NCBI RefSeq assembly: GCF_014524545.1
Contig: NZ_CP053557.1
Span: 645,501-709,500, forward strand
Source: Exiguobacterium sp. Helios
Lineage (GTDB): Bacteria > Bacillota > Bacilli > Exiguobacteriales > Exiguobacteriaceae
DNA length: 64,000 nt
Direction: 5' to 3'
The first letter of the stretch is position 1; each line of letters begins with the position of its first letter. This document shows positions 2,269 through 18,319 of the stretch, one piece after another. The translations under genes and the position numbers were made by a program. The notes under the pieces are model-generated. The model was not told the origin of the DNA and did no database searches. It saw nothing but the letters and a program-made list of their open reading frames with translations.

Positions 2269-3669
2269 TTACGACTTCGTTAAGACATCTTGTTGGCGGG
2301 GCGACAGGTGAATTGCGTGTCCGATTAACGATTCGACGGCTTCTGTCCAGGCTTCGTTCCGGCTCGGATGCGGCATAATCGGGAAGCGGACATCTTCTTC
2401 CTTGGCAGCCATCTCAAGAGCTTGTGCAAACGTTCCGGCGAGATCGACGGCGCCTTCGCCCATCATATGAACGCCTAAAAGGAGATTCGTCGTCGCATCG
2501 GAGATGACCTTGATGAAACCACTTCCGGCTTCAATCATCGTTGTTCCATTGGCATTAAGGGGAAATTGGCCGGTCCGGATCGAATAACCGGCGTCCGTTG
2601 CCGCCTGTTCCGTCAAGCCGATGGAGACGATTGGCGGAAGAGACCGGATGATGGTCGGGTAATAGGGTACCGTCGCATCGGCCAGTTGTCCGGATAAATG
2701 TTCGGCCGTCCGTTTCGCTTCATGGATGGCGCGTGTCGCAATCGCAGGACCAGGTGTTACATCTCCGATGGCATAAATATGCGGACGGTTTGTCTGTCCG
2801 AATGGATCGACGGGAATCGTTCCGTCTTCTGCTACCGTCACACCAATCCGCTCGAGTCCGAGTTCCAACGTGTGCGGAACGCGAGGCAACGATTGAAACA
2901 AAAAAGGAGCGGACCAGGTCGTCTCCTGTCCCTGTTTGACGACCGTAACGGTCACTGCCTCTTCTGCTTCGATGGCTGTGACGGTCCCAGAGACAAGTTG
3001 AATCTTTTGTTTTTTTAAGAGGCGTCGGAGTTCTTTGTTTATACTCGAATCCAACTGGAAGTCGTCGGCAATCAACGTGACCGACGTACCAAGAGCTTGA
3101 AAACTCATTGCGGCTTCGACAGCGATATAGTCTTGTCCGATGATGACGAGACGTTCAGGTAATTCGGTCAGTTGGTATAACTGTTCGGCATTTAAGATAG
3201 AGGGAGAATCTTGTTCGATGCTGTGGCTTCCGGTCGCAATCACGACGTCGGTAAACCGGTACGTATCAAACTGATGCCCCAGCTCGACCCCAATCCGGTC
3301 GTCTGCTAAAAATGAAGCGGTTCCGTGCAAGATTTCAATCGCGTTTGCCTGACAGAGCGCTTCGACTCCCGTTCGTAATTGACGGATGGTCCGTTCCCGG
3401 TACTCGACCAATTGACTGAAATCGTGGGTCGGGTTGAAAGAAAAACCGAGAGCAGACATGTGATTCATCTGTTGTTTGATATCTGCGGCATGAGCGACGA
3501 CCTTGGACGGGATACATCCTTTGTTCAAGCAAAGTCCACCAAGCTGTGCCTGCTCAATCAAGGTGACGTTGCGGCCCAGTTGACTGGCACGGATGGCAGC
3601 GGTGTAACCGGCCGGACCACCACCAAGAATCACTAAATCACGTTCTTGTGTCAGTTCACCTACGACCAT
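2269..3669 (-). CDS. Dihydrolipoamide dehydrogenase (E3) of a 2-oxo-acid dehydrogenase complex
   Basis: This FAD flavoprotein reoxidises the dihydrolipoyl arm of the neighbouring E2 and passes electrons to NAD+. The 466 residues include the FAD site ILGGGPAGYTAAIRA at 14-28, the redox disulfide GGLCLNKGC with C47 and C52, the second dinucleotide fold near 170-200, the AIGDVTPGPAIATRA FAD segment, and HPSRNEAWTEAVE near the C-terminus with the catalytic His-Glu pair. Its ATG directly abuts the stop of the E2 gene. Being last in an operon with phenylalanine dehydrogenase and E1/E2, it is dedicated to that complex rather than a general Lpd. Substrate specificity lies in E1/E2, not here. Confidence 0.92.
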   Translation of the reverse strand: MVVGELTQERDLVILGGGPAGYTAAIRASQLGRNVTLIEQAQLGGLCLNKGCIPSKVVAHAADIKQQMNHMSALGFSFNPTHDFSQLVEYRERTIRQLRTGVEALCQANAIEILHGTASFLADDRIGVELGHQFDTYRFTDVVIATGSHSIEQDSPSILNAEQLYQLTELPERLVIIGQDYIAVEAAMSFQALGTSVTLIADDFQLDSSINKELRRLLKKQKIQLVSGTVTAIEAEEAVTVTVVKQGQETTWSAPFLFQSLPRVPHTLELGLERIGVTVAEDGTIPVDPFGQTNRPHIYAIGDVTPGPAIATRAIHEAKRTAEHLSGQLADATVPYYPTIIRSLPPIVSIGLTEQAATDAGYSIRTGQFPLNANGTTMIEAGSGFIKVISDATTNLLLGVHMMGEGAVDLAGTFAQALEMAAKEEDVRFPIMPHPSRNEAWTEAVESLIGHAIHLSPRQQDVLTKS

Positions 3670-4884
3670 TTAAATCAGCTCCATTAATAAAGTAGTGGGG
3701 TGTTCGATTAAGCCGGCGAACCGGTTCGTAAAAGCAACGGCCGTCGCGCCGTCAGCGACACGGTGATCAAAGGACATCGATAGATTCATCATCGAGCGGA
3801 TGACGATCTGATCGTGATCATCGACGCAGACCCGTTTTTTTGTTTTGTGGAAGGCAATTAAAGCCGTTTCCGGGTAATTGATGATCGGGGTCGCTCCTGT
3901 ACTTCCGAGGGGACCGACATTACTCATCGTAAAGGTGCTTGGTTTCAGATCGGCAGCTCGCAAGTCTCCTGTCTTGGCACGGGCGGACAGTTCCGCGACA
4001 CGCGTGTGCAACTGTTGCATCGTCAGCTTGTCTGCGTCACGAACGACCGGGACAATCAGTCCGTCCGCCGTCTCGGTTGCGACACCGATATGATACTGTT
4101 GCTCGAGGATGATCTGTTCGTTGGCTTCATCGAGTTTTGCGTTAAACACCGGGAAGTCCTGGAGTGCGACAATCAAGGCTTTGATGAAAAAGGCGTTGAC
4201 GCTGATCGGTTTACCGGCCGCCTTTAATTTTTCGCGCAAGGCGAGCAGGCGGGTCATATCCACTTCTTCAAAATGCGTGACGTGCGGAATCGTAAAGAGG
4301 GACTGTGTCATTTTTTTCGCAATCTGTTTCCGGATGCCGCGGAACGGAATCGTTTCGAACGGTTTAGCAGAAGGGGTACTTGTTTGTTCGACGACATCTG
4401 CCTTCTCGACAGAAGCAGTTGTATCGAGGAACCGCCGGACATCCTCCTCCGTCACGCGACCGGATGGATCGGAAGGTGGAACTTGTTCCAAATCAATCCC
4501 GTGTTCGCGCGCGATTTTACGCGTGTAGGGGGTAGCCAAGACACGCCGACTACTCGATGAAACAGCCGGTGTTAGGACAGACGGCCGGACTTTGATTTGT
4601 TCCGTCGTCTGCCGGATCGGTTGTTCCGCAGTTACGGCCGTTTCTGTTTCAAGGGCTTCAATCAATAATAGGACCGTACCGACCGAGACGGTTTGACCGA
4701 CAGGGATGATGAGGTCCGTAACGACACCGGAAACCGGTGCCGGTAATTCAGCGACCATTTTATCGGTCGACACTTCGACGACAGGCTGATCAATTGTGAC
4801 ACGATCCCCGACCCGGACCAGATAGTTCGCAATTTCACCTTCCGTCATCCCTTCACCGACGTCATGCAACTTTACTTCAATCAT
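3670..4884 (-). CDS. Dihydrolipoyl acyltransferase (E2) of a 2-oxo-acid dehydrogenase complex
   Basis: This is the core acyltransferase that accepts the acyl group from E1 on lipoyl-lysine and passes it to CoA. Domains in order are one lipoyl domain (about 1-80, with lipoylated K42 in STDKMVAELP), a linker, the peripheral-subunit binding domain (about 115-150, ATPYTRKIAREHGID), and the catalytic domain (about 175-404) with MSFDHRVADG holding the catalytic His-Asp. A single lipoyl domain fits BCKDH-like and Gram-positive complexes. The frame extends to 4893, but AAGGAG is placed for the ATG at 4884. There are 12 bases between E1 beta and this gene. Whether it handles branched-chain, phenylpyruvyl or both acyl groups cannot be read from sequence; the operon favours phenylacetyl-CoA formation. 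Confidence 0.92.
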   Translation of the reverse strand: MIEVKLHDVGEGMTEGEIANYLVRVGDRVTIDQPVVEVSTDKMVAELPAPVSGVVTDLIIPVGQTVSVGTVLLLIEALETETAVTAEQPIRQTTEQIKVRPSVLTPAVSSSSRRVLATPYTRKIAREHGIDLEQVPPSDPSGRVTEEDVRRFLDTTASVEKADVVEQTSTPSAKPFETIPFRGIRKQIAKKMTQSLFTIPHVTHFEEVDMTRLLALREKLKAAGKPISVNAFFIKALIVALQDFPVFNAKLDEANEQIILEQQYHIGVATETADGLIVPVVRDADKLTMQQLHTRVAELSARAKTGDLRAADLKPSTFTMSNVGPLGSTGATPIINYPETALIAFHKTKKRVCVDDHDQIVIRSMMNLSMSFDHRVADGATAVAFTNRFAGLIEHPTTLLMELI

Positions 4885-4896
4885 CACGTTCACTCC

Positions 4897-5895
4897 TTAA
4901 AAATCGACCGTACGCTGGATCGCTTCAAGCACACGCGTCGGCGTCGGGATGTAATGGTCCTCGAGGGCGAATAATGGAACGGGCACGTCGAACCCGGTGA
5001 CACGGGCTACCGGGGCACGTAAATATAAGAACGAGGTATCATTGATCAGCGCAAGCAAATCGTTGCCAAGACCCCCCATAGCTTGTGCTTCGTGGATGAT
5101 GACAGCCCGTCCGGTTTTTTGAACGGAGGCCGCAATCGTTTCACGATCAAGCGGATAGAGCGTCCGCAAATCAATCACTTCACAGGAAATACCGCGGGTC
5201 GCAGCTTCCGTTGCGGCTTTTTGTGCGACTTGGACCATCGCTCCCCAAGCAATCAGTGTCACGTCCTGACCTTCGGTGACACATTTCGCTTTCCCGATTT
5301 CAACCGTATAGGCTTCACTCGGAACCGGCTCCTTAAAGGCCCGGTAACTCCGCATCGACTCGAGGAATAAGACCGGATCCGGATCTTCAATGGCCGCAAT
5401 CAATAAACCTTTCGCATCATAAGGAGTGGAGGGACAGACGACTTTTAAGCCCGGCATCGAAGTGAAAAGGGCTTCCGTGCTGTCGGAATGAATCTCCGGC
5501 GCCCGAATGCCGGCGCCATAAGGGGCACGGATGACCATCGGCACGCCGTAACGTCCCATCGTCCGCATCCGGATCCGCGAGACGTGGGTCATGATTTGTT
5601 CGTAAGCAGGATAGATGAAGCCGAGAAATTGGATTTCGACAATCGGCTTAAACCCGTTGACCGCGAGACCGATTGACGTTCCGACGATTCCTGCTTCGCT
5701 CAGCGGCGTATCGATGATCCGGTCCTCCCCGAACTCTTCCTGCAGACCGTCCGTCGCCCGGAAGACACCGCCGTTTTTCCCGACATCTTCACCTAGTACA
5801 AGCGTCGTCTCATCGTCCGTCAGTTTTGTCCGTAAGGCATCGGTAACAGCCTGGACGAGCGTCATCTCCGTTTGTCGGTTGATTGGTGTCGCCAT
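4897..5895 (-). CDS. 2-oxo-acid dehydrogenase E1 component, beta subunit
   Basis: The 332-residue beta chain of the thiamine-diphosphate E1 decarboxylase carries the conserved LGEDVGKNGGVFRATDGL, DTPLSEAGIVGTSIGLAVNG, the potassium and TPP-contacting region around IRAPYGAGIRAPEIHSDS, and the C-terminal transketolase domain with VIDLRTLYPLD. It overlaps closely with E1 alpha: GGGGG upstream of its ATG lies inside the end of the alpha gene, so the two chains are likely made in equal amounts. Family members are annotated either as pyruvate or as branched-chain 2-oxo-acid dehydrogenase. Here the linkage to phenylalanine dehydrogenase and paa genes suggests phenylpyruvate as a main substrate, which is an inference. 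Confidence 0.92.
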   Translation of the reverse strand: MATPINRQTEMTLVQAVTDALRTKLTDDETTLVLGEDVGKNGGVFRATDGLQEEFGEDRIIDTPLSEAGIVGTSIGLAVNGFKPIVEIQFLGFIYPAYEQIMTHVSRIRMRTMGRYGVPMVIRAPYGAGIRAPEIHSDSTEALFTSMPGLKVVCPSTPYDAKGLLIAAIEDPDPVLFLESMRSYRAFKEPVPSEAYTVEIGKAKCVTEGQDVTLIAWGAMVQVAQKAATEAATRGISCEVIDLRTLYPLDRETIAASVQKTGRAVIIHEAQAMGGLGNDLLALINDTSFLYLRAPVARVTGFDVPVPLFALEDHYIPTPTRVLEAIQRTVDF

Positions 5896-5896
5896 A

Positions 5897-6949
5897 TCAA
5901 TTCCCCCTTGCGGTCAGATAATCTGTTTTTTGACGGACTAAATCGTCCGGTAATGTTGCGTACGTATGATCGAACAAATCGTTGACGTCAGGCGGCGGGA
6001 AAGCTTCCATCGTTTTGACGGCGGCTTCGACCTCTTCTTGATGCCGCGTCCGGATGGCTTCGATTTCCTGTTCATCGTAGAAACCTTGTTCTTTCATGAA
6101 ACCTTCCAAGCGGGTGAGGGGATCGATTCGGTCCCGGGAACGGTCCTGATCCCGGTATTTCGACGGATCATCCGCTGTCGTATGGGCACCGAATCGCCAC
6201 GTGACCGCTTCAATCAAGGTTGGTCCGCCACCGGAGCGTGCCCGTTCCAGTGCAGTCTGCATCGTGAAATAAACGGCGAAGACATCATTGCCGTCAATCC
6301 GGACGCTCGGCATCCCGTAAGCCAAAGCCTTTTGGGCAATCGTTTCCGAATGCATCTGTTTTTGAATCGGGACGGAAATCGCATACCCGTTGTTTTGATT
6401 AAACAGGATGACCGGAGCCTGGAAGACGCTGGCGAAGTTCATGCCTTCGTGGAAATCACCTTCCGATGTGGCCCCGTCCCCAAAGTAAGCGACGGCGACC
6501 TGGGTTGATCCTTTTCGTTTTTCTGCCCAGGCCGCACCGACCGCATGCGGGATTTGTGTGGCAATCGGAACAGCGGGCGGGAAGATATGCAACTCATCCG
6601 TCGGGACACAGCCTTCGACACGTCCGTTCCAATACAAAAATGTCCGGACCATGTCGGCGCCAAACGTCAGCGTCGCTCCGTGATCCCGGTACGTCGGGAA
6701 GACCCAGTCCTTGTCCTGCAGTGCATACGCACTGCCGACCTGTGCCGCTTCCTGTCCTTCGAACGGTGCATAGGTCCCGAGCCGTCCTTGACGCTGCAGA
6801 TTGATGGCTTTCCGGTCGAATGTCCGGATCCGGTTCATATGTGTGAAGAGTGCGAGACTCAAGTCTTTTGTCAGCAAATCATTTTTAGATGTATCAAGGA
6901 CGTGTCCTGCATCATCAAGTATCCGGTAAATCGGAAATTCGGTTTCCAT
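5897..6949 (-). CDS. 2-oxo-acid dehydrogenase E1 component, alpha subunit
   Basis: This is the TPP-binding alpha chain of the E1 decarboxylase. The TPP/Mg motif GDGATSEGDFHEGMNF ... NQNNGYAIS is intact, and the phosphorylation-loop region RFGAHTTADDPSKYR is recognisable. It opens with QGRLGTYAPFEGQEAAQVGSA, closest in feel to Gram-positive PdhA-like proteins rather than Bacillus BkdAA. Length is 350 residues from the ATG at 6949, which has GGAGGT seven bases upstream. An in-frame ATG at 6964 abuts the phenylalanine dehydrogenase stop but has no ribosome binding site. The 2-oxo acid side chain it accepts is the open question for this operon. Confidence 0.9.
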   Translation of the reverse strand: METEFPIYRILDDAGHVLDTSKNDLLTKDLSLALFTHMNRIRTFDRKAINLQRQGRLGTYAPFEGQEAAQVGSAYALQDKDWVFPTYRDHGATLTFGADMVRTFLYWNGRVEGCVPTDELHIFPPAVPIATQIPHAVGAAWAEKRKGSTQVAVAYFGDGATSEGDFHEGMNFASVFQAPVILFNQNNGYAISVPIQKQMHSETIAQKALAYGMPSVRIDGNDVFAVYFTMQTALERARSGGGPTLIEAVTWRFGAHTTADDPSKYRDQDRSRDRIDPLTRLEGFMKEQGFYDEQEIEAIRTRHQEEVEAAVKTMEAFPPPDVNDLFDHTYATLPDDLVRQKTDYLTARGN

Positions 6950-6964
6950 TCGTGTCACCTCCAT

Positions 6965-8107
6965 TTAGTCGTTCCGGATGTTCCATTTCGGTTTGATCGT
7001 ATTCGTAAAAATGTTGTTATGGCGTGAGCGGATTTGAATCCGTTTGTTGCACATCCGATTGGCTGCTTCGAGTGTCGTGATCGATTCCGCATGAGACTCG
7101 TGGAATACTTCGAGGACCGCATCATAAATATGTTTGGTTTTTAACAGGACACGTTCATGGTTCGCCCCGTATAGTTCGTCGGCAACCTGAATCAGACCGC
7201 CGCCGTTGACGATATAATCGGGTGCATATAAAATACCGCGTTGCTGTAATTCGAGCGCAAGGGCATCATCGGCAAGTTGATTGTTGGCCGATCCACAGAT
7301 TGCCTTACACTGGAGCTGTCCGATGTTCGCTGCTTGGATGACACCGCCATAAGCACAAGGCACAAAGATGTCGGCATCCGTCAGGTGAATTTCATGAGCG
7401 GCAATGACACGAACCGTTCCGGGTGTTTTTTCCGCTTGCTCGACGAGAGCAGCGAGAATGGATTCGCTCAAATCGGACACGTACAGGTTAGCACCGGCAG
7501 ACAATAACTGTTCCGCGACTTTATAGCCGACCTTTCCGAGTCCTTGGACAGCGTAACTGGCCCGGCTTAAATCATCGGATCCATATAACGTTTCGACCGT
7601 TGCCCGTAAGCCGTAAATGACGCCTTCCGCTGTTGGAATCGATGAATCGCCGCTTCCGCCGAAAGCTTCCGGAATCCCGACGATCCGTGACGTTTCCCGG
7701 CTGGCATGGACGAAATCTTCCATCGTCGTGCCCATATCCGTTCCGGTGTAGAAACGTCCGCCGAGTGAATCGACGAATCGTCCGAAGGCACGGAACAATT
7801 CGGGTGTTTTGTCCGTCGCCGGATTACCGATGATGACGGCTTTCCCGCCGCCGAAATCGACGTCAGCTGCTGCACATTTATACGTCATGCCACGCGACAG
7901 CCGCAAGACATCATCGAGTGCTTCGTCGACGGTCGAATACGGTGCCATCCGGCAACCACCGAGGGCGGGTCCGAGTGTCGTATCGTGAATGGCAATGATC
8001 GCCTGCAGACCGGACACAGGATCGTTACAAAAAACGACCTGTTCGTGACCGGAAATCTTCTCCATGATGGATGGTGATGGATCCGTGGATGGGTTCAACA
8101 TATTCAT
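6965..8107 (-). CDS. pdh: Phenylalanine dehydrogenase (NAD+)
   Basis: The enzyme oxidatively deaminates L-phenylalanine to phenylpyruvate with NAD+. Residues matching known PheDH rather than leucine dehydrogenase include [26 protein letters not shown] (LeuDH has an Ala in place of the second loop Gly), [29 protein letters not shown] and the dinucleotide loop [13 protein letters not shown]. The tail PKWNIRND is almost the same as my recollection of the Lysinibacillus sphaericus PheDH tail. It is 380 residues from the ATG at 8107, which has AGGAGG nine bases upstream. A longer frame reaches 8143, but that ATG lacks a binding site and lies within a cre element. It is second in the leftward operon, feeding E1-E3. 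Confidence 0.9.
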
Positions 8108-8116
8108 AGTAAACAT

Positions 8117-8122
8117 CCTCCT
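8117..8122 (-). promoter_or_regulatory. Ribosome binding site that fixes the phenylalanine dehydrogenase start
   Basis: AGGAGG on the minus strand with nine bases to the ATG at 8107 rules out the longer frame beginning at 8143. Confidence 0.8.
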
Positions 8123-8128
8123 GACTTT

Positions 8129-8143
8129 AGTAAGCGCTTTCAT
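8129..8143 (-). promoter_or_regulatory. cre site (CcpA operator) upstream of phenylalanine dehydrogenase
   Basis: The minus strand reads ATGAAAGCGCTTACT, a match at every defined position of the Bacillus cre consensus WTGNAANCGNWNNCW. It lies between the thioesterase stop (8152) and the phenylalanine dehydrogenase ribosome binding site. It would therefore act as a transcriptional roadblock or on an internal promoter. Glucose repression of phenylalanine catabolism is the expected effect. Confidence 0.75.
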
Positions 8144-8151
8144 TTTGCTCT

Positions 8152-8547
8152 TTAAAAAACACGCGGCGTCAACTTTTCCTGAATCAGCTGCTTATTTAAA
8201 ATGATTTGTTTGACTTCCCCAAGACCGATGACACGATCACCTTGTCTGACTTCGACTTTGGCTACTACGCGGCGGGATGTGAGCTCGCTGACAGTGGCTT
8301 CGATGCGGATATTGGATCCGAGTGTCGCCATTCCTAAATGCTTCAAGGAAACAGCACCACCGACTCCTTCTTCCTGTTCTTCCAGGTAGGGGAGGATGAG
8401 TTTTCGAGCGGCCCATTCCATATGATAGACCATCGAGACGGTGGAGTAAGCCGGGTGGACGACCACACCTTCGAACTGAGCGAACATTTCTTCTGTGACA
8501 ATCGCCTCGATGACAGCAGAGTCGCCGAGCGACAAACCGTTTTTCAT
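8152..8547 (-). CDS. Hotdog-fold acyl-CoA thioesterase, fluoroacetyl-CoA thioesterase (FlK) family
   Basis: A 131-residue single hotdog domain. The pattern [41 protein letters not shown]...[17 protein letters not shown] matches the FlK-like thioesterase family, including the conserved Thr/Ser, Glu and His of the active site. It is the first gene of the leftward operon and faces the paa operon across a shared control region. This position suggests a housekeeping role like that of PaaI: hydrolysing stalled aryl-CoA intermediates and releasing trapped CoA. PaaI itself belongs to a different hotdog subfamily, so the role is an inference. GGGGGAAACGAT precedes the ATG. Confidence 0.8.
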
Positions 8548-8592
8548 ATCGTTTCCCCCTTGCCTGTGACCACAGCTGGTCTTACCAAAAAT

Positions 8593-8813: not shown

Positions 8814-8850
8814 AACCGTTTTAAAACGGACGTTTGTTTATTGTGTTATA
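8811..8850. promoter_or_regulatory. Candidate PaaX operator B (paaK promoter)
   Basis: TATAAC (8811-8816) and GTTATA (8845-8850) form a perfect 6-bp inverted repeat around a 28-base spacer. Inside the spacer is the 14-bp palindrome CCGTTTTAAAACGG (8816-8829) and AAACGGACGTTT (8824-8835), which by itself resembles the TetR-type PaaR box of Thermus (CNAACGNNCGTTNG). No tetR-type gene is in the window, whereas paaX is. Confidence 0.55.
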
Positions 8851-8872
8851 TAGACGCGGGAAGGGGTGCCAC

Positions 8873-10183
8873 TTGTATAACGAAATCCTGGAAACGATGG
8901 AAGCGGAAGAACGATCCCGCTTACAGCTTGCAAGTTTACGTGAGACCGTTCGTCATGTGATGGAACATGTCCCGTTTTATCAAACCCGCTTCATGGAACG
9001 GGGACTTAATCCGGAGGAATTCCAAACGATGGCGGATATTCAAAAGTTACCGTTCACATACAAAAGTGATTTGCGGGAACAGTATCCGTTTGGCTTATTT
9101 GCGGTTCCGCCTCAGGAAACGGTCCGGATCCATGCTTCATCCGGAACAAGTGGAAAACCGACCGTCGTTGGTTATACACAAAGCGATTTGGATGATTGGT
9201 CGAAAGCTGTCGCACGTGGTCTGGTCGCCATCGGTGCTGAAAAAACCGACTTGTTGCACAATGCTTACGGATACGGTTTATTCACCGGCGGACTCGGTCT
9301 GCACAGCGGAGCCGAAAAACTCGGGATGACGATTGTTCCCGTGTCCGGCGGTAATACCGACCGGCAAATCACGTTGATTGAAGATTTCCAGCCCCGTGGA
9401 ATTTGCGGAACACCGTCTTATATGTTGCATCTTGCGGAACGGATGGAAGAAAAGGGGTTTAATCCGAAAGCGAGCAGCCTCCGGTACGGGATTTTTGGAG
9501 CCGAGCCATGGTCGGAAGAACTGCGGAAGACCCTCGAAAACAAGTGGGGGATCCGGGCTTTTGATATCTACGGTCTCAGCGAAATCATGGGACCGGGTGT
9601 CGCAATGGAGTGTCAGGAACAAAACGGATTGCATCTGATGGATGATTTGTTTATCACGGAAGTCATTGATCCCGCAACGGGCGAACCGCTACCAGAAGGA
9701 ATGGTCGGGGAACTCGTTTTTACAAGTTTGAAAAAGAAAGCGCTTCCAATAATTCGGTATCGTACCGGAGACTTGGCATCCGTCACGACAAAAATGTGCG
9801 GCTGTGGTCGGACGACGACCCGGATGTCGCGGGTCAAAGGGCGGACGGATGACATGATGATCATCCGTGGCGTCAACGTCTTTCCGTCCGAAATTGAACG
9901 GGTCTTATTACAGCAACCGGGTGTCACACCCCATTATCAAATTCACCGGATTCAACGGGCCGGTCTTGAAGCATTGGAACTGCACATCGAACTTGAACCG
10001 GGAACAGTTGCTGAAGAACTGAAACGGGGCATCTGTCATGCCATGAAAACCGAATGTCTGATCTCGGTGGATCTGATTTGTCACCCGCCATACGGTCTTC
10101 CGCGCTCTGAAGGGAAGGCTGTCCGGATCATCGACCGTCGCGCAATGTCCGAGAAGAAGTTGTTTAAGCAGAGGAGGAACTGA
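8873..10183 (+). CDS. paaK: Phenylacetate--CoA ligase
   Basis: This cytoplasmic AMP-forming ligase activates phenylacetate to phenylacetyl-CoA, the first step of the aerobic paa pathway. Motifs in order are HASSGTSGKPTVVGYT (P-loop of adenylate-forming enzymes), GIFGAEPWSEELR, YGLSEIMGPGVAMEC, YRTGDL and GRTDDMMIIRGVNVFPSEIE (C-terminal hinge). From the chosen TTG start it is 436 residues, the PaaK norm, and begins LYNEILETM as family members do. AAGGGG precedes that TTG. A longer frame to 8834 would run into operator B and is unlikely. It leads the operon, four bases from paaA. Confidence 0.93.
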   Translation: MYNEILETMEAEERSRLQLASLRETVRHVMEHVPFYQTRFMERGLNPEEFQTMADIQKLPFTYKSDLREQYPFGLFAVPPQETVRIHASSGTSGKPTVVGYTQSDLDDWSKAVARGLVAIGAEKTDLLHNAYGYGLFTGGLGLHSGAEKLGMTIVPVSGGNTDRQITLIEDFQPRGICGTPSYMLHLAERMEEKGFNPKASSLRYGIFGAEPWSEELRKTLENKWGIRAFDIYGLSEIMGPGVAMECQEQNGLHLMDDLFITEVIDPATGEPLPEGMVGELVFTSLKKKALPIIRYRTGDLASVTTKMCGCGRTTTRMSRVKGRTDDMMIIRGVNVFPSEIERVLLQQPGVTPHYQIHRIQRAGLEALELHIELEPGTVAEELKRGICHAMKTECLISVDLICHPPYGLPRSEGKAVRIIDRRAMSEKKLFKQRRN

Positions 10184-10184
10184 A

Positions 10185-11156: not shown

Positions 11157-11169
11157 AGGAGGAGAGACC

Positions 11170-11514: not shown

Positions 11515-12296
11515 CGGAAGCAGAACGTTTGGCCTTGGGCTCACTGCTCTATCAATTAGCAGATGATGACTTTTTATATGCCTACCGCGGATCGGAATGG
11601 TTGGGACTCGCCCCGCATATCGAAGAAGATGTCGCGTCGTCCTCGATTGCTCAGGATTCGATGGGGCATGCGGCCATGTACTACCAACTGCTCGAAGAAA
11701 TCGGCGAAGGAAAGGCTGATGCACTCGCTCATGTGCGGCTTGCGCATGAACGGAAAAACTCGGTCCTCGTCGAACGGGTCAACGGACCGGGATATTATAT
11801 GGAGAATCCGGAATATGACTGGGCGTATGCCGTCGTGCGCAACTATTGTTATACGCTTGCGAAAAAGGTACGGATTGACTCGTTGAAAAAAAGCAGTTAT
11901 GCGCCGCTCGCAGCACTCGCCGTCAAGGTCAACATGGAGTTGTACTATCATTTGTTGCACTGGCAAACGTGGTTCACCCAGCTGTATCAATCAACAGAAA
12001 CAGCCCGTCAGAAGATGGATGCGGCTCTTGAACGGGTATTGGCTGACTTCGGTGACCTGTTTGATTACGGGGAAGCAGCGGAAATGATTGACGAGATGCG
12101 CCTGATTGAGGGGAAGGGGATTTTACTGGATCGTTGGTATCAGGCACTGACACCGGTCCTCGTCGATCTGAACGTCACGTTGCCGGAAATGAACATGACC
12201 TACAACGGACGAAACGGTGAACATTCTTCTGATTTGAACGATGCCTTATCGACGCTCGGGGAAGTCTATCTGCTCGATCAGTCAGCGGTATGGTGA
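11511..12296 (+). CDS. paaC: Phenylacetyl-CoA epoxidase structural subunit PaaC
   Basis: This ferritin-like partner of PaaA (261 residues) shows EEDVASSSIAQDSMGHAAMYYQLL and ERVNGPGYYMENPEYDWAYAVVRN, both typical of PaaC. As in the family, the diiron ligands are degenerate, so the role is structural. It is coupled to paaB by a four-base overlap and followed by paaD. Confidence 0.95.
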   Translation: MTEAERLALGSLLYQLADDDFLYAYRGSEWLGLAPHIEEDVASSSIAQDSMGHAAMYYQLLEEIGEGKADALAHVRLAHERKNSVLVERVNGPGYYMENPEYDWAYAVVRNYCYTLAKKVRIDSLKKSSYAPLAALAVKVNMELYYHLLHWQTWFTQLYQSTETARQKMDAALERVLADFGDLFDYGEAAEMIDEMRLIEGKGILLDRWYQALTPVLVDLNVTLPEMNMTYNGRNGEHSSDLNDALSTLGEVYLLDQSAVW

Positions 12297-12310
12297 AGGA
12301 GGAACGGCAG

Positions 12311-12805
12311 ATGACGACAAGACTAGAACAGGACATCCGGGAAGCCCTGGATACAGTTAAAGATCCGGAAATCGATGCGGTAAGTATTCTCGATCTCGGA
12401 ATGGTCGAAGCGACGGAATGGACGGAGACACCGTTCGGATACGATATCCGGATTACGCTTCTCCCGACATTTTTAGGATGTCCGGCGCTTGATATCATCC
12501 AAAAGAACACCGAATCCGCTTTGTTACAAGTGCCCCAGGTCAATACGGTCGATGTCGTTTTCCTGTTTGATCCGCCGTGGACCTCGGACCGGATTACAGA
12601 ACAAGGAATTACCGGTCTGAAGTCCTTTGGAATTGCCCCGCCGCGGGTCGTCGACGGAAAGTGGGAAATCGACTGCCCGTACTGCGGATCGACGTTCGTC
12701 TCGATTGAAAATCTGTTTGGTCCGACGGCTTGCCGGAGTATTTTATATTGTAAATCATGCAAAAATCCATTCGAGGCGATGAAACCCGTCTCTACTCTCA
12801 TGTGA
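12311..12805 (+). CDS. paaD: PaaD, epoxidase maturation protein (MIP18/DUF59 family)
   Basis: PaaD is thought to help mature or insert metal centres of the epoxidase system. The 164 residues begin with the DUF59 core (TVKDPEIDAVSILDLGMVE, LLPTFLGCPALD) and end with a zinc-ribbon-like CPYCGSTF ... CRSILYCKSCKNPFE. The frame opens upstream at 12290, but AAGGAGG selects the ATG at 12311. In operons that have paaE this gene normally precedes it. Here a different gene follows. Confidence 0.93.
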   Translation: MTTRLEQDIREALDTVKDPEIDAVSILDLGMVEATEWTETPFGYDIRITLLPTFLGCPALDIIQKNTESALLQVPQVNTVDVVFLFDPPWTSDRITEQGITGLKSFGIAPPRVVDGKWEIDCPYCGSTFVSIENLFGPTACRSILYCKSCKNPFEAMKPVSTLM

Positions 12806-12820
12806 AGGAAGGTAATCATT

Positions 12821-13144
12821 ATGGTAAAACTAATCGCGCTTTATACACATCCGGAGAACAAGGAACAGTTTGACGAGCATTATTTCAATGTCCACGGTCC
12901 ACTGACGGCGAAGATTCCCGGTCTGCAGCAGATGACGGTCACGAAGATCGTCGGTTCACCAATGGGCGGAGACGGTAAATATTATCTGATGTGCGAAATG
13001 GTCTACGAAAACCATGAAACGATGAAAGCCGGCATGCGTTCGCTTGAAGGAAAAGCGTCCGGTAAAGATTTGATGGGCTTTGCGGGAGATCTTGTGACGC
13101 TGATGATTGGTGAAGAAGTCCATGCTGACGCCACAGTACGTTAA
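12821..13144 (+). CDS. EthD-family protein within the paa operon
   Basis: A 107-residue dimeric alpha+beta barrel protein of the EthD family: MVKLIALYTHPENKEQFDEHYFNVHGPLTAKIPGL holds the conserved FDEHY...HxPL pattern. EthD proteins are small stabilisers or lyase/isomerase-like partners of oxidative pathways, with no settled role in phenylacetate breakdown. AAGGAAGG precedes the ATG and the gene overlaps the following crotonase by 23 bases, so it is part of the operon. It sits where paaE would be expected, but it has no redox-cofactor motif and cannot replace it. Confidence 0.8.
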   Translation: MVKLIALYTHPENKEQFDEHYFNVHGPLTAKIPGLQQMTVTKIVGSPMGGDGKYYLMCEMVYENHETMKAGMRSLEGKASGKDLMGFAGDLVTLMIGEEVHADATVR

Positions 13145-13898
13145 GACAAGTATCGAGGGGCGAATCGGCCGGATTCGACTGAATCGCCCGGAACGTTACA
13201 ATGCCTTGAACCGGACGATGATTCGGGAAATCGTCGAAGCGATGGAACAGTTTGATCAGGACGAAGCGATTACAGTCATTGTCCTGAACGGGGAAGGAAA
13301 ATCCTTTTCAGCCGGAGCCGATATCGAGGAGATGGTCGACGCAACGCCGATTTCGATGGAATTACTCGATCCGTTTGCCGATTGGGACCGGATCAGCCGG
13401 TTGCATAAGCCGCTGATTGCTGCGGTTCATGGATTTGTGCTCGGCGGCGGGTTTGAACTGGCACTGGCCTGTGATTTGATTTATGCGACACCGGAGACTC
13501 AGTTCGGTTTCCCGGAAGTCGGACTCGGTGTCATGCCGGGCGCCGGCGGGACGCAACGCCTGACGAAACGGATCGGCCGGACCCGGGCCCTTGAATGGTT
13601 ATGGACGGGAGACCGGATGCTGGCATCGGAAGCAGAATGTCTTGGAATCATCAACCGGATTGTGGAAGCGGATCAACTCGAAGCAAGTGTTTTGGCCGTT
13701 GCCGAACGGATTGCGGCACAACCGGTGATGTCCGTGCGACTGATCAAAGATGCAGTCGATAAGGCAGGCGACCTGTCGTTGCAAGACGGCATGGATCATG
13801 AAAGAAGAAATTTCTACTTACTATTCGGGACGAATGATCAGACGGAAGGGATGCAAGCCTTTCTTGACAAACGTCAACCGACATTCAAAGGAAACTAA
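13122..13898 (+). CDS. Enoyl-CoA hydratase/isomerase (first crotonase of the paa operon)
   Basis: A crotonase of 258 residues from the ATG at 13122. It has the oxyanion-hole segments FSAGADIEEM and LGGGFELALACD, and both catalytic glutamates of a true hydratase (GGGFE and FGFPE), followed by GVMPGAGGTQRL. In paa pathways crotonases act as PaaG (epoxide to oxepin isomerase), PaaF (dehydroadipyl-CoA hydratase) or the ring-hydrolysing ECH-Aa type. E. coli PaaG lacks the first glutamate, so this protein looks more like a hydratase than a PaaG. The start lies inside the EthD gene; a TTG at 13107 is an alternative. Specific role unresolved. Confidence 0.85.
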   Translation: MLTPQYVKTSIEGRIGRIRLNRPERYNALNRTMIREIVEAMEQFDQDEAITVIVLNGEGKSFSAGADIEEMVDATPISMELLDPFADWDRISRLHKPLIAAVHGFVLGGGFELALACDLIYATPETQFGFPEVGLGVMPGAGGTQRLTKRIGRTRALEWLWTGDRMLASEAECLGIINRIVEADQLEASVLAVAERIAAQPVMSVRLIKDAVDKAGDLSLQDGMDHERRNFYLLFGTNDQTEGMQAFLDKRQPTFKGN

Positions 13899-13912
13899 GG
13901 GGAGTGGGAGCT

Positions 13913-15421
13913 ATGTCAACGGTACATGAAAAAACAATCGAGATGAAACGTTCCGTCTATCATCTGGTCATCAACGGCGAGCAAGTCGAAGGGACATCAG
14001 GGGAGACCTTCAAGACCTATAATCCGGCAACCGGCGAAGTCATCGCCGAAGTCGCAAAAGCTTCAAAAGAAGATGCCAATCGTGCGGTACAGGCGGCACG
14101 GGAAGCCTTCGATCACGGAAAATGGAAAATGTGGCCGGTTGGTCGCCGGTCGCAAGTCCTGAACAAAATTGCCGGTATCATGCGTTCACGTTTCAACGAA
14201 CTGGTGGAACTCGAGATTCTCGATACCGGAAAATCCCTCGCGGCAGCGCAAGGGCAAATCACGCAAGCGATTGAAGACTTTGAATTTTATGCCGGAGCCA
14301 TCGTCGGTCACCGTGGTGCCGTCAATAACGTGCCGGGGCAATTCCATAACTACACGGAAAAAGAACCGGTCGGTGTCTGTGCCCAAATCATTCCATGGAA
14401 CTATCCATTGATGATGGCGGCCTGGAAAGTCGCACCGGCGATTGCGGTCGGCTGTTCGGTTGTCGTCAAACCGGCGACGCTGACACCGTTGACAGCCATC
14501 ATCCTCGGCGAAATTTGTCTCGAAGCCGGTGTACCGGCAGGTGTCGTCAACGTTATTCCGGGATCGGGCCGCGAAATCGGCAACCACTTGGTGGAACACC
14601 CGAATGTCGATAAAGTCGCCTTTACCGGTTCGACACCGGTTGGAAAAGATATCATGGGCCGGGCGTCGGAAAGCTTAAAACGCGTTACGCTTGAACTCGG
14701 CGGTAAATCACCGAACCTCGTGTTTGAGGATGCCGACATCACGGCAGCCGTCGACGGGTCACTGTTTGGCATCTTCTATAACAGCGGACAGTCATGCGAA
14801 GCCCGGTCGCGCCTGTATGTCCATGAAGACATTTACGATACGTTCATGGAACAATTCGTCGCCAAAACAAAACAATTGGTACTCGGTAATCCGTTTGATA
14901 AAGGGACGCATGTCGGGGCAATCATCGATCAACAACAGCTTGATGTCATCGACGGTTATATCCAGTCGGCAAAAGCGGACGGAGCTACGATCTTGACGGG
15001 AGGTCAAATCGAGAAAGTGGCTGGTTTTGAAGAAGGTTTCTGGTATGCACCGACAATCATTGCCGATGTCACACACGAGATGAAAGTTGTCCAGGAAGAA
15101 ATCTTTGGACCGGTCGTCGTCGTGATGAAGTTCAAGGATGAAAAAGAAGCCGTTCGTCTGGCAAACGACACGGAGTTCGGACTTGGGTCGGCAATTTGGA
15201 CAAAAGACGGAGCACGCGCGACGCGGATTGCGAATCAGATCAAAGCCGGTATCGTCATGATCAACTGTCCGTTCTCAGCCTTCCCGGGCACACCGTTCGG
15301 CGGCTACAAACAATCTGGTTTCGGGCGCGAACTCTGCATCGAGACACTTGATTTATATACGGAAACGAAAAGTATCCTGTCGTATTACGGCAGTCGTCCA
15401 CTTAATCCGTTCGGACTGTAA
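13913..15421 (+). CDS. NAD(P)-dependent aldehyde dehydrogenase of the paa operon
   Basis: A 502-residue aldehyde dehydrogenase with VKPATLTPLTA, FTGSTPVGKDI, the catalytic Glu in VTLELGGKSPNLVF and the nucleophile in SGQSCEARSRL. It covers only the ALDH domain. The C-terminal MaoC-like hydratase domain of PaaZ is missing, because the protein ends at the normal ALDH length. By position it probably oxidises the ring-opened semialdehyde to 3-oxo-5,6-dehydrosuberyl-CoA, with the oxepin hydrolysed by a separate crotonase. AAGGGGAG precedes the ATG at 13913. A strong terminator hairpin follows its stop. Confidence 0.88.
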   Translation: MSTVHEKTIEMKRSVYHLVINGEQVEGTSGETFKTYNPATGEVIAEVAKASKEDANRAVQAAREAFDHGKWKMWPVGRRSQVLNKIAGIMRSRFNELVELEILDTGKSLAAAQGQITQAIEDFEFYAGAIVGHRGAVNNVPGQFHNYTEKEPVGVCAQIIPWNYPLMMAAWKVAPAIAVGCSVVVKPATLTPLTAIILGEICLEAGVPAGVVNVIPGSGREIGNHLVEHPNVDKVAFTGSTPVGKDIMGRASESLKRVTLELGGKSPNLVFEDADITAAVDGSLFGIFYNSGQSCEARSRLYVHEDIYDTFMEQFVAKTKQLVLGNPFDKGTHVGAIIDQQQLDVIDGYIQSAKADGATILTGGQIEKVAGFEEGFWYAPTIIADVTHEMKVVQEEIFGPVVVVMKFKDEKEAVRLANDTEFGLGSAIWTKDGARATRIANQIKAGIVMINCPFSAFPGTPFGGYKQSGFGRELCIETLDLYTETKSILSYYGSRPLNPFGL

Positions 15422-15426
15422 AAACC

Positions 15427-15458: not shown

Positions 15459-15474
15459 AAAGGAGGAAAATCAG

Positions 15475-16347
15475 ATGATGGTTCAACAGATGGTGGTCGT
15501 AGGGTCAGGTGTGATGGGCAGAGGGATTGCATACGTAGCAGCAGCCAGCGGATTTGACGTGACATTGGTCGATGTCGAGCAACAGTTGCTGACGTCCGCA
15601 CAACAGGAATTGGAACAGGTTGCCGATAAAGCCATCGTCCGCGGGAAAATGACGACGGAAGAAGTCGGGCAACTGTTCGACCGTTTGCGTTATGCAACGG
15701 ATTTAAAGGAGTCTGTCAGAGACGCAGATCTTGTGATTGAAGCCGTTCCGGAACGGCTTGATATTAAGCGGACAGTCTTTGAGACACTGGACCGTTATGC
15801 GCCGGCAGGTTGTGTTTTTGCGACCAATACGTCGACGATGAGCCCGACCGAGATTGCTTCGTTTACGAAACGTCCGGAACGGGTCATGGCGATGCACTTC
15901 TTTAATCCGGTTCATCGGATGCCGCTCGTCGAACTGGCACGGGGGCTTGAAACGTCAGAAGAGACCGTGTCGATTTGTGAAACCGTTGCGCAACAAATGG
16001 GGAAAGAGACAGTTGTCATCCGTGAGTTTCCCGGACTCGTCACGTCACGCATCAGTGCCCTTGTCGGCAATGAAGCATTTTATATGTTGCAGGAAGGACT
16101 CGGCACACCGGAAGAAATTGATAAAGCAATTAAGCTCGGACTGAACTATCCGATGGGACCGTTCGAACTCGGGGATCTCGTCGGACTCGACACCCGCTTA
16201 AACAATCTACGGTATCTTCACGAAAAGTTAGGCGAAAAATACCGTCCGGCACCGCTCCTCGAACAATACGTCAAAGCAGGACGTCTCGGACGGAAAACCG
16301 GGCGCGGCGTCTATGATTATTCGGACAGCGGGGTGAAGAGCCGATGA
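15475..16347 (+). CDS. paaH: 3-hydroxyacyl-CoA dehydrogenase (3-hydroxyadipyl-CoA)
   Basis: This NAD+-dependent dehydrogenase of the lower, beta-oxidation-like part of the pathway oxidises 3-hydroxyadipyl-CoA to 3-oxoadipyl-CoA. The Rossmann motif VVGSGVMGRGIA is at the N-terminus, with FATNTSTMSPTEIA and the catalytic HFFNPVHRMPLVE. The C-terminal domain shows NYPMGPFELGDLVGLD. The 290 residues match the family. AAGGAGG precedes tandem ATGs at 15475 and 15478. It overlaps paaJ by ATGAG-type coupling. Confidence 0.9.
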   Translation: MMVQQMVVVGSGVMGRGIAYVAAASGFDVTLVDVEQQLLTSAQQELEQVADKAIVRGKMTTEEVGQLFDRLRYATDLKESVRDADLVIEAVPERLDIKRTVFETLDRYAPAGCVFATNTSTMSPTEIASFTKRPERVMAMHFFNPVHRMPLVELARGLETSEETVSICETVAQQMGKETVVIREFPGLVTSRISALVGNEAFYMLQEGLGTPEEIDKAIKLGLNYPMGPFELGDLVGLDTRLNNLRYLHEKLGEKYRPAPLLEQYVKAGRLGRKTGRGVYDYSDSGVKSR

Positions 16348-17552
16348 GACGTGTCGCCATCATGGATGCGGTCCGTACACCAATCGGCCGCTATAACGGA
16401 GTACTCAAAGACGTCCGGCCGGATGATTTAGGGGCTTGTGTCATCAAAGCGCTCGTTGATCGAAATCCGGAGTTGGATCCGCATTTAATCGAAGAAGTGA
16501 TTTTTGGAAATGCCAATCAGGCAGGGGAAGACAACCGGAATGTCGCCCGCATGTCTGGCCTGCTTGCCGGTCTGCCGGTCGAAGTTGCCGGAACAACCGT
16601 TAACCGGTTGTGCGGTTCCGGACTCGATGCTGTCATCGCCGCAGCCCGGGCGATTGCGATGAACGAAGGGGAGATTTATATTGCCGGCGGAACGGAAAGC
16701 ATGACCCGGGCTCCGCTCGTCATGGGCAAGCCGGAAACCGGTTTCGCCCGCGGGAATCCGGCGATCTACGATACGACGATCGGGTGGCGGTTCGTCAATG
16801 AAAAACTGCGAGATATGTACGGAACAGACTCGATGCCGGAGACGGCGGAACACGTCGCAACCCGGTATGGGATTTCACGGGAAGCGCAAGATGATTTTGC
16901 CTTTTTAAGTCAGCAACGGGCGAAACAGGCGATGGAGACACATCGTTTTCAAACAGAACTTGTTCCGGTGCAGTATACGACACGCAAAGGACAGATCGTC
17001 GAAGTGAAGACGGATGAACATCCACGTCCTGACACGAGTCGCGAAAAACTGGGCACGCTTAAAAGCCTGTTTCCGAACGGCACCGTCACGGCAGGGAATG
17101 CTTCCGGTATCAACGACGGGGCAGCTGCCTTGTTATTGATGAGTGAAGAAACAGCGGAACGTCTCGGATTGACACCGCTCGCCTATTACCGGGCCAGTGC
17201 CGTTGCCGGCGTCGAACCGGCTGTCATGGGAATCGGACCGGTTGATGCGACGCGCAAAGCGCTGAACCGGGCAGGATTGACGGTCAACCAGCTGGATTTG
17301 ATTGAACTCAACGAAGCGTTTGCCGCACAAAGCGTCGCCTGTATGCAAGAACTCGGATTACCGCCGGAAAAAGTCAACGTCAACGGAGGAGCCATTGCCT
17401 TTGGTCATCCGCTCGGTGCAAGCGGAGCACGGATTTTAACGACGTTAATCCACGAGATGTGCCGCACGAATCAGACATATGGTCTGGCGACGATGTGTGT
17501 CGGGGTCGGACAAGGCATTGCCCTCGTCGTGGAACGGGAGGGACTCACATGA
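16344..17552 (+). CDS. paaJ: 3-oxoadipyl-CoA / acyl-CoA thiolase
   Basis: A thiolase of 402 residues with the nucleophilic cysteine in VNRLCGSGLDAV (around residue 90), NVNGGAIAFGHPLGASGARI with the active histidine, and the second cysteine in ATMCVGVGQG. In phenylacetate breakdown it cleaves both 3-oxo-5,6-dehydrosuberyl-CoA and 3-oxoadipyl-CoA to acetyl-CoA and succinyl-CoA. It overlaps paaH at its start and the second crotonase at its end (ATGA). The substrate is inferred from context; the thiolase fold is certain. Confidence 0.92.
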   Translation: MRRVAIMDAVRTPIGRYNGVLKDVRPDDLGACVIKALVDRNPELDPHLIEEVIFGNANQAGEDNRNVARMSGLLAGLPVEVAGTTVNRLCGSGLDAVIAAARAIAMNEGEIYIAGGTESMTRAPLVMGKPETGFARGNPAIYDTTIGWRFVNEKLRDMYGTDSMPETAEHVATRYGISREAQDDFAFLSQQRAKQAMETHRFQTELVPVQYTTRKGQIVEVKTDEHPRPDTSREKLGTLKSLFPNGTVTAGNASGINDGAAALLLMSEETAERLGLTPLAYYRASAVAGVEPAVMGIGPVDATRKALNRAGLTVNQLDLIELNEAFAAQSVACMQELGLPPEKVNVNGGAIAFGHPLGASGARILTTLIHEMCRTNQTYGLATMCVGVGQGIALVVEREGLT

Positions 17553-18319
17553 TTCATTTGGAACGACGCGACTACGTCGTCATCATTCGGATTGACCGGC
17601 CGGAACGGATGAACTGCTTTGATTATCCGACGCTGGTTGAGCTGCAACAGCTGGTCACGACCGTTCGTCACGATCCGACCATCCGGGTTGTCATCTTTAC
17701 CGGAACAGGGAAGGCGTTCAGCGCCGGTGCTGACTTGAAGGAACGGGTGACGTTAAACGAAACGGAAGTCCGGCGAAACGTCGAAGCCATTCGTGACGTC
17801 TTCACAGATATCGCCCATCTGCCGCAACCGACGATTGCTGCGGTCAACGGTCATGCACTCGGCGGCGGTTTCGAATGGATGCTCGCCTGTGATTTCCGGA
17901 TCATCGTCGAAGGGGCATTGGTCGGATTGACAGAAACCAGTTTCGGCATCATTCCCGGTGCCGGCGGGACACAACGGTTGCCGCGGTTGATTGGAGAGAC
18001 CCGGGCGAAAGAACTGATTTTCACAGCCAGGAAAATTGATGCACAGACCGCTGAACAGTACGGGATTGTCTCGCGTGTCGTCGCAACAGGGGAAGAATTG
18101 ATGGCAGTTTGTCTTTCGTTTGCGGATGAGATGTTACAAAATGGACCGGTTGCCATCCGACAGGCTAAACAGGCGATTGACCAAGGACTCGATCAATCTC
18201 TCTCGGAGGGCTTGAAAATTGAAACATCCGCTTACGAAGCGGTCATCCCGACGGAAGACCGGCTGGAAGCGTTACGCGCCTTCGCCGAAAAACGGACGCC
18301 ACAGTTTCAAGGAAAATGA
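17549..18319 (+). CDS. Enoyl-CoA hydratase (second crotonase, PaaF-like)
   Basis: A 256-residue crotonase starting at the ATG that overlaps the thiolase stop. The motifs FSAGADLKERV, LGGGFEWMLACDFRI and GLTETSFGIIPGAGGTQRLPRLIG place it near methylglutaconyl-CoA or 2,3-dehydroadipyl-CoA hydratases, and both catalytic glutamates (GGGFE and GLTE) are present. Next to paaH and paaJ it best fits PaaF, which hydrates 2,3-dehydroadipyl-CoA. Whether it or the first crotonase also does the PaaG step cannot be told from sequence. Confidence 0.85.
   Translation: MIHLERRDYVVIIRIDRPERMNCFDYPTLVELQQLVTTVRHDPTIRVVIFTGTGKAFSAGADLKERVTLNETEVRRNVEAIRDVFTDIAHLPQPTIAAVNGHALGGGFEWMLACDFRIIVEGALVGLTETSFGIIPGAGGTQRLPRLIGETRAKELIFTARKIDAQTAEQYGIVSRVVATGEELMAVCLSFADEMLQNGPVAIRQAKQAIDQGLDQSLSEGLKIETSAYEAVIPTEDRLEALRAFAEKRTPQFQGK

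Follow-up and report, generated by a model that had tools for sequence, protein, structure and literature searches.

The window analysed here is a stretch of 64,000 nucleotides from Exiguobacterium sp. Helios (contig NZ_CP053557.1, positions 645,501 to 709,500). Two operons diverge within it: a minus-strand operon (8547-2269) encoding a phenylalanine dehydrogenase (PheDH) together with the E1, E2 and E3 components of a 2-oxo acid dehydrogenase complex, and, back to back with it, the plus-strand paaK-paaABCD operon of the phenylacetate pathway. The minus-strand operon probably encodes a dedicated phenylpyruvate dehydrogenase complex along with its supplier, by which phenylacetyl-CoA would be made directly. 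In the simplest reading, predicted from genome comparison, phenylpyruvate, CoA and NAD+ would be converted to phenylacetyl-CoA. It is also likely that such a complex is widespread in Bacilli and lets several lineages drop PaaK, that its supplier can be swapped between PheDH and a HisC-family aminotransferase, and that the paa pathway of these bacteria is primarily a phenylalanine pathway. The phenylpyruvate dehydrogenase function had been put forward in an original prediction made from this DNA alone; genome comparison supported it through the recurrence of the gene pair of PheDH and E1alpha, its co-occurrence with paa, genomes lacking PaaK, and the replacement of PheDH by an aminotransferase.

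The PheDH operon and the other 2-oxo acid dehydrogenases of the genome

The first gene of the minus-strand operon encodes a FlK-type hotdog thioesterase (8152-8547; PF22636, 113 bits). It is followed by PheDH, a member of the ELFV family (6965-8143; PF02812/PF00208) with the signatures TGTDMGT and GGLIQ, and by the genes of the proposed phenylpyruvate dehydrogenase complex: E1alpha (5897-6964; PF00676), E1beta (4897-5895; PF02779/PF02780), the E2 dihydrolipoyl acyltransferase with lipoyl, E3-binding and catalytic domains (3670-4893, listed with a GTG start; PF00364, PF02817, PF00198), and the E3 dihydrolipoyl dehydrogenase with FAD/NAD domains (2269-3669; TIGR01350 at 366 bits, below the cut-off of 409). 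As the gaps between these genes do not exceed 8 bp throughout, they form one operon by layout. Domain scans thus identified all four components of a 2-oxo acid dehydrogenase complex in it, and profile scans placed every gene of both divergent operons where the original prediction had located it. The lipoyl-lysine and the DHRxxDG motif of E2, the thiamine-diphosphate motif of E1alpha and the redox cysteines of E3 were seen by eye in the translations. E3 is the least conserved subunit of the complex, with 52-54% identity to that of Exiguobacterium flavidum.

The true start of PheDH may lie downstream of the listed one, because many relatives align from about residue 25. In the PheDH motifs TGTDMGT and GGLIQVADE, G and L respectively occupy positions at which the leucine dehydrogenase (LeuDH) of the genome has A and V, and by which the two enzymes can presumably be told apart (Seah and colleagues). 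In a crude motif count, G and L were present in 89 of 96 PheDH-type stretches and also in 4 of the 21 LeuDH-type stretches that were readable (31 others were unreadable). As a sequence criterion, the signature helps the PheDH assignment and does not decide between PheDH and LeuDH.

Judged from its family and signature, PheDH would convert L-phenylalanine and NAD+ to phenylpyruvate and NH4+. By analogy with the pyruvate dehydrogenase (PDH) and branched-chain 2-oxo acid dehydrogenase (BKDH) complexes, E1alpha and E1beta would decarboxylate phenylpyruvate with thiamine diphosphate, E2 would transfer the phenylacetyl group to CoA, and E3 would re-oxidise the lipoyl group with formation of NADH. 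Phenylacetyl-CoA would then be passed to epoxidation by PaaABC and to the lower pathway with neither free phenylacetate nor PaaK, sparing the ATP-to-AMP cost. A retained PaaK would act on phenylacetate that comes from outside or is set free by the FlK-type thioesterase. The thioesterase itself may release CoA from phenylacetyl-CoA or from dead-end thioesters, possibly upon pile-up of phenylacetyl-CoA, and PaaK may take up the phenylacetate again.

It had been considered that the complex could be the housekeeping copy if no other pdh or bkd operon existed. In the genome (3.15 Mb), the E1_dh model gave four strong loci and one weak match. The strong loci correspond to the operon of the window, the 2-oxoglutarate dehydrogenase (OGDH; 1165 bits), a bkd operon and a pdh operon. 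The bkd operon contains a sigma-54-type activator, ptb, a LeuDH-type dehydrogenase, buk, E3 (lpd), E1alpha, E1beta and E2, so that the plan of the window operon, an amino acid dehydrogenase with a complete complex, is also that of the bkd operon. Against the solved PDH chain 1w85, E1alpha of the pdh operon scored 588 bits and that of the window 268 bits. The best match of the bkd E1alpha was the 2-oxo acid dehydrogenase 1um9, and the genome's own LeuDH matched the chain 8gxd in the Protein Data Bank (by eye). The separate pdh, ptb-LeuDH-buk-lpd-bkd and OGDH genes rule out the housekeeping reading; the complex of the window is the fourth 2-oxo acid dehydrogenase complex of the genome.

The classical decarboxylase route was also considered for this genome and rejected. 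TPP_enzyme_N had four matches, namely two acetolactate-synthase-like proteins, one MenD-like protein (read by eye from its translation and neighbour gene) and the alpha subunit of a 2-oxoacid:acceptor oxidoreductase. None of these four reads as an indolepyruvate/phenylpyruvate decarboxylase, and no dedicated phenylpyruvate decarboxylase was found among them.

The E1alpha tree comprised 104 rows, with seven of the 103 E1alpha loci left out (L073, L077, L078, L117, L159, L170, L175). Starred sets of 3, 8 and 10 rows unite E1alpha of the window with PheDH-linked rows. It does not group with the E1alpha of branched-chain (BKD) complexes, whose rows are separated by a branch with 100/100 support. 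The genome's own PDH E1alpha and two PDH-like rows adjacent to PheDH share a long branch that arises within the remaining rows, so that the deep splits of the tree are unsure. The residue before the motif YR is T or S in all 83 PheDH-linked rows and in all 14 unlinked ones; the genome's own PDH has G at this place, the two PDH-like rows have T, and 4/4 BKD rows have Y. In addition, H follows D/E in 79/83 PheDH-linked and 13/14 unlinked rows. The substrate pocket of E1 lies between E1alpha and E1beta, and these active-site residues were considered as a proof of specificity. This was rejected: since T/S and H are also present in E1alpha without PheDH, they show a difference from the own PDH and BKD and not the substrate. 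As sequence features, they mark an E1alpha group of its own.

As a separate observation, two PaaK-less genomes (L095 and L096, about 9350-13900) have PheDH immediately after a PDH-like E1alpha-E1beta-E2 set that does not belong to the main group, perhaps an independent recruitment of a PDH.

Distribution of the complex, loss of PaaK and replacement of PheDH

The sample of the order Exiguobacteriales consisted of 38 genomes, 19 of the genus and 19 of its sister genus. In all 19 Exiguobacterium genomes, matches to PheDH (80-100%) and E1alpha (77-100%) lie at most 20 bp apart, with paaA about 1-2 kb away. In the 19 genomes of the sister genus no paaA was found, and the dehydrogenase matches were limited to LeuDH-like (47-49%) and PDH- or BKD-like ones.

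The class sample contained 398 genomes of Bacilli, 360 of them outside the order. PheDH (E<=1e-106) was detected in 90, E1alpha (E<=1e-84) in 157 and paaA (E<=1e-60) in 147 of the 398. A genome or locus in which PheDH has E1alpha within 5 kb on the same strand is referred to as a pair genome or locus. Outside the order, and among the E1alpha matches listed, this was the case for 61 of 71 PheDH genomes (61/72 when counted by matches), leaving out two tandem second PheDH copies (G290, G322); in 56 of the 61 the distance was within 250 bp. In the same set, paaA was present in 55/61 pair genomes vs 73/299 others (Fisher p 2e-22, uncorrected for kinship), the latter count including two genomes with a PaaA of only 38-40% (G052, G105). 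As both the pair and its co-occurrence with paa recur in order and class, the arrangement is not due to chance. These comparisons support an association of the complex across Bacilli with PheDH and, at the level of single genomes, with the paa pathway. A second PheDH copy was seen in tandem upstream of the thioesterase in two loci (L077:11068-12210 and L078:7639-8781).

The named loci are the best 80 of 586 confirmed stretches, 28 of PheDH type by best match and 52 of LeuDH type. Among the former, 27 hold E1alpha, that of L197 being divergent and on the other strand, and L173 has none. None of the 52 LeuDH-type loci holds the PheDH-linked type of E1alpha, and three hold a bkd E1alpha. The nearest of these named loci is that of E. 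flavidum; the holders include Fictibacillus, Neobacillus, Rossellomorea, Sporosarcina and Mesobacillus, and further Heyndrickxia, Kroppenstedtia, Thermoactinomyces, Tumebacillus and Alicyclobacillus. In paa-linked loci, the paa genes, often a nitronate-monooxygenase (NMO)-family protein and the thioesterase, PheDH and the complex form one block. An example of an unlinked locus is found in Thermoactinomycetaceae, where two hydratases, PheDH, E1alpha, E1beta and E2 stand alone.

A complex that yields phenylacetyl-CoA would make PaaK unnecessary for the use of phenylalanine. PaaK was searched for (E<=1e-60) in 63 pair genomes, i.e. the 61 outside the order, the genome of the window and G025. It was found in 48 and is absent from 15, of which 11, one congener among them, have kept paaA (G025, G267, G282, G298, G290, G322, G075, G104, G367, G391, G383). 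These eleven belong to five families (f1, f3, f17, f19, f32), each of which also contains PaaK-bearing pair genomes; the other four PaaK-less genomes (G089, G177, G187, G206) are also without canonical paaA. Complete open frames of E1alpha, E1beta and E2 are present in 10 of the 11, stops flagged in some E1alpha matches of PaaK-less genomes falling outside their open frames, and E3 is in the cluster in six. In G104 (L092:6546-8236), a transposase-like insertion, guessed to be of the IS110 family, lies between E1alpha and E1beta. The paa region of G367, G391 and G383 holds paaABCD and no paaK. The thioesterase is still in the cluster in six PaaK-less genomes (L138, L073, L074, L076, L077, L078). 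The absence of PaaK from eleven genomes with PheDH, the complex and paaA is in keeping with a complex that releases its product as a CoA thioester. The bypass of PaaK in the original prediction is thereby strengthened as a capacity; the window genome itself retains paaK, so that the bypass is not necessarily the only route.

In the congener E. flavidum, paaK is gone and 217 bp separate the longest frames of the thioesterase and paaA. Values of dN and dS were 0.10 and 2.1 for paaA, 0.18 and 1.6 for E1alpha, 0.11 and 1.9 for E1beta, and 0.15 and 2.8 for PheDH, with dS near saturation and paaA compared over 267 codons without its C-terminal part. E3 was the least constrained (dN 0.43). The paa and complex genes of E. 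flavidum are under purifying selection.

As a control, 73 paaA-bearing genomes without an adjacent pair were analysed, of which 64 have PaaK and nine do not. Four of these nine have PheDH (G049, G194, G204, G288) and three have E1alpha beside paa (G240, G277, G388); the remaining two possess a distant PaaA only. After G052 and G105 had been dropped from the PaaK-loss tables, 126 genomes were left. PaaK is missing from 14/63 paaA-bearing genomes with PheDH anywhere vs 3/63 without (p 0.008, uncorrected for kinship). The 12 paaA-bearing genomes with neither PheDH nor this E1alpha type all keep PaaK, a small number (p 0.37). These statistics are no more than suggestive, and greater weight falls on the individual genomes that lack PaaK.

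In another lineage, PheDH appears to be replaced. A set of 23 loci was chosen in which the E1alpha type is present with no intact PheDH adjacent, made up of 20 of the 55 such rows listed and of G184, G301 and G101, which have a dehydrogenase match (49-52%) elsewhere in the genome. In L139, PheDH is split over two frames. A HisC-family aminotransferase was found upstream of E1alpha on the same strand in seven of the 23 (L146, L150, L151, L245-L248), directly in six and with just the thioesterase in between in L248. Downstream and in the same direction, paaABCD follows in five of these seven (L146, L151, L245-L247); paaA occurs in 8 of the 23 loci. The genome of L151 (G388) has no PaaK. HisC-family enzymes often accept aromatic amino acids, and phenylpyruvate is a plausible common product of PheDH and of this aminotransferase. 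The replacement of PheDH by such an enzyme points to an aromatic 2-oxo acid as substrate of the complex.

Competing explanations and known systems

Several observations weigh against a complex dedicated to phenylpyruvate and tied to paa. E1alpha of the window is named pyruvate dehydrogenase by NCBIfam, passing TIGR03181 with 464 bits (the own PDH also passes, with 456 bits), and the three HisC-family proteins scanned pass TIGR01141, the model of histidinol-phosphate transaminase. One of them has a histidinol-phosphate aminotransferase as its closest solved relative, followed by 4r2n, a 'putative phenylalanine aminotransferase'. The alpha subunit of the 2-oxoacid:acceptor oxidoreductase encoded in the genome (632 aa) scored 702 bits with TIGR03710 and 92 of 651 bits with IOR_alpha, the latter a clear failure of the cut-off. 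The search for other genomes with PheDH and the complex near paa, proposed with the original prediction, did recover the pair in 61 of 71 PheDH genomes, and just 24 of the 61 pair loci have a match to paaA, B, C, D, X or K at a distance of up to about 10 kb, three of these by a weak PaaA-like match alone; physical linkage of the pair to paa is not general. Canonical paaA is absent from 6/61 pair genomes; four of these encode a divergent PaaA-like protein within the cluster, the other two (G073, G089) do not. PaaK is present in the window genome and in 47/61 pair genomes outside the order, and its absence is not significantly more frequent in paaA-bearing genomes with the adjacent pair (10/55) than in those without (7/71; p 0.20). 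In one genome (G049), PheDH and paaA are present, and both paaK and, at the threshold used, an E1alpha of the PheDH-linked type are absent. In principle, PaaK-less genomes could draw phenylacetyl-CoA from another ligase or oxidoreductase of a kind outside the search.

It is improbable, although close to what was proposed in 2008, that the thioester made by the complex is hydrolysed by the FlK-type thioesterase, phenylacetate being the true intermediate that PaaK re-activates. The operon begins with the thioesterase gene, which is found again in 14/61 pair loci and 20/27 named PheDH loci, paaK is kept in 48/63 pair genomes, and phenylacetate is the product given in PMC2615787. This reading is opposed by the eleven genomes with PheDH, complex and paaA but no PaaK, six of which still have the thioesterase in the cluster, and by the energy that would be wasted in making and then hydrolysing a thioester. 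An accidental position of the complex beside PheDH and paa, as a second branched-chain or general 2-oxo acid dehydrogenase, is quite improbable. Complexes of this family are often promiscuous, 37/61 pair loci show no match to paaA, B, C, D, X or K within about 10 kb, and the NCBIfam name of E1alpha would agree with such a role; on the other hand, the genome has a separate bkd operon with its own LeuDH, E1alpha lies near PheDH in 61/71 genomes, a fully supported branch separates it from BKD, and the residue before YR (T/S in 83/83 PheDH-linked rows) differs from Y of 4/4 BKD rows and G of the own PDH, T occurring also in two PDH-like rows. A biosynthetic role, in which phenylacetyl-CoA would prime phenyl fatty acids or enter a secondary metabolite, is hardly to be expected: the available excerpt on PglB/PglC of Streptomyces describes a biosynthetic case (PMC7089894), but the complex is divergently adjacent to paa in the window and part of paa operons in other genomes, and complex and paaA are present or absent together between the two sister genera.

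With direct formation of phenylacetyl-CoA as the preferred reading, several known systems can be compared. The classical phenylalanine route via phenylacetaldehyde and phenylacetate shares the ring-cleavage pathway that follows; it needs a decarboxylase, an aldehyde dehydrogenase and the ATP-dependent PaaK. The LeuDH-bkd operon (ptb, LeuDH, buk, lpd, bkdAA, bkdAB, bkdB) likewise combines an amino acid dehydrogenase with E1-E2-E3 making acyl-CoA; its substrates are branched-chain, and its E1alpha is clearly separate from that of the window. In the 2008 genome paper of Exiguobacterium sibiricum, PheDH, a neighbouring 'pyruvate dehydrogenase' and a phenylacetate operon were already described, the dehydrogenase turning phenylpyruvate into phenylacetate (PMC2615787). 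The product thus differs, and that section contains no test, cross-genome comparison or PaaK bypass. For PglB/PglC, a PDH-like alpha/beta pair of the pristinamycin L-phenylglycine pathway of Streptomyces pristinaespiralis, the same conversion of phenylpyruvate to phenylacetyl-CoA was suggested (PMC7089894). That pair belongs to an antibiotic cluster; the five pgl genes named in the available excerpt include no E2, E3 or PheDH, and the likeness is one of description only. Direct oxidative decarboxylation of phenylpyruvate to phenylacetyl-CoA by an indolepyruvate/arylpyruvate:ferredoxin oxidoreductase is, in the available part of PMC5109826, described in Pyrococcus and predicted in Desulfococcus. 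This is a ferredoxin-dependent iron-sulfur enzyme and not a lipoyl NAD complex. The available text on Phaeobacter reports a route from phenylalanine to phenylacetyl-CoA without phenylacetate and names no enzyme for it (PMC7497051). Excerpts of two further papers describe the paa cluster in a polystyrene study of Exiguobacterium, with no word of the complex (PMC9416434), and mention a cluster with a PheDH in Rhodococcus ruber (PMC6498646). In the open-licence literature searched, no statement of a direct complex route in Bacilli was found, and 'phenylpyruvate dehydrogenase' with 'phenylacetyl-CoA' gave no match. Nevertheless, the claim that no complex dedicated to this step had been described was too strong, in view of the E. 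sibiricum paper (PMC2615787) and, as far as its excerpt goes, of PglB/PglC (PMC7089894). The mechanism is partly anticipated in print; what is new here is the spread of the complex, the PaaK-less genomes and the aminotransferase swap.

PheDH has long been used in biotechnology, and the proposed pathway, if true, would give a reason for its existence in these bacteria. In Bacilli, phenylalanine could then reach ring cleavage independently of PaaK and at a lower ATP cost, and an enzyme would be available for phenylacetyl-CoA production from phenylpyruvate. Many E1alpha genes of the PheDH-linked kind may be misnamed, as that of the window passes the pyruvate dehydrogenase model. A 2026 survey whose available part inspects gene context around PaaK (PMC13186573) would miss genomes like the eleven PaaK-less ones.

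The paa operon and neighbouring genes

The plus-strand operon starts with a paaK-like phenylacetate-CoA ligase gene (8834-10183; TIGR02155 567 bits, cut-off 646), listed with a TTG start, the real start being uncertain. It is followed by paaA (10185-11156; TIGR02156, 457 bits), paaB (11224-11514; TIGR02157), paaC (11511-12296; TIGR02158) and paaD with a C-terminal zinc ribbon (12290-12805; TIGR02159, PF23451), all four above the respective TIGR cut-offs. Further downstream are encoded an EthD-family protein (12821-13144; TIGR02118), an enoyl-CoA hydratase/isomerase of PaaF/PaaG type (13107-13898; profile scan), an aldehyde dehydrogenase (13904-15421; PF00171) that perhaps performs the PaaZ-type ring-opening aldehyde step, a PaaH-type 3-hydroxyacyl-CoA dehydrogenase (15475-16347; NF006722, above cut-off), a PaaJ-type thiolase of the 3-oxoadipyl-CoA kind (16344-17552; NF006551 590 bits, cut-off 605) and a second enoyl-CoA hydratase (17459-18319; profile scan). 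The start of the latter is probably near 17531, because homology begins near residue 30. The route had been called complete in the original prediction. This holds for paaABCD and the lower-pathway genes; the cluster lacks a paaE reductase gene and a PaaZ fusion. No PaaE was found among the scanned cluster genes, to which the search for it was confined, and no PaaZ fusion among the cluster genes.

A perfect 14-bp palindrome, CCGTTTTAAAACGG, is located at 8816-8829 just before paaK. A shared operator in the divergent promoter was considered and dropped: the window contains no second exact copy and one copy with 2 mismatches, which was matched by 6/100 shuffles; the palindrome was not found with up to 3 mismatches in E. 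flavidum, and a promoter scan found no shared operator.

Tumebacillus-like PheDH-complex clusters, in genomes without canonical PaaA, encode a stand-alone PaaA-like protein of 275-278 aa with 27-30% identity to PaaA (L122:5296-6132, L130:13789-14616, L133:3807-4634, L136:14207-15034). Two of these proteins were scanned with TIGR02156 and fell far below the cut-off, and one scored 139 bits with PF05138; by sequence, they are possibly a different oxygenase.

Just beyond the range of the original prediction, the PaaX repressor is encoded at 18387-19280 as the last gene of the plus-strand operon (TIGR02277, above cut-off), followed by a PaaY-like protein of the gamma-carbonic-anhydrase fold on the minus strand (19332-19850; NF050158 202 bits and TIGR02287 138 bits, both below cut-off). 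Near paaX, the plus strand also encodes an FMN protein of the NMO family (19933-20868; PF03060). Proteins of this family were encountered upstream of the PheDH genes in 16/61 pair loci and 17/27 named loci (L073, L075-L084, L154-L156, L158-L160, L162-L170), and the small EthD-family protein also occurs in 18/61 pair loci.

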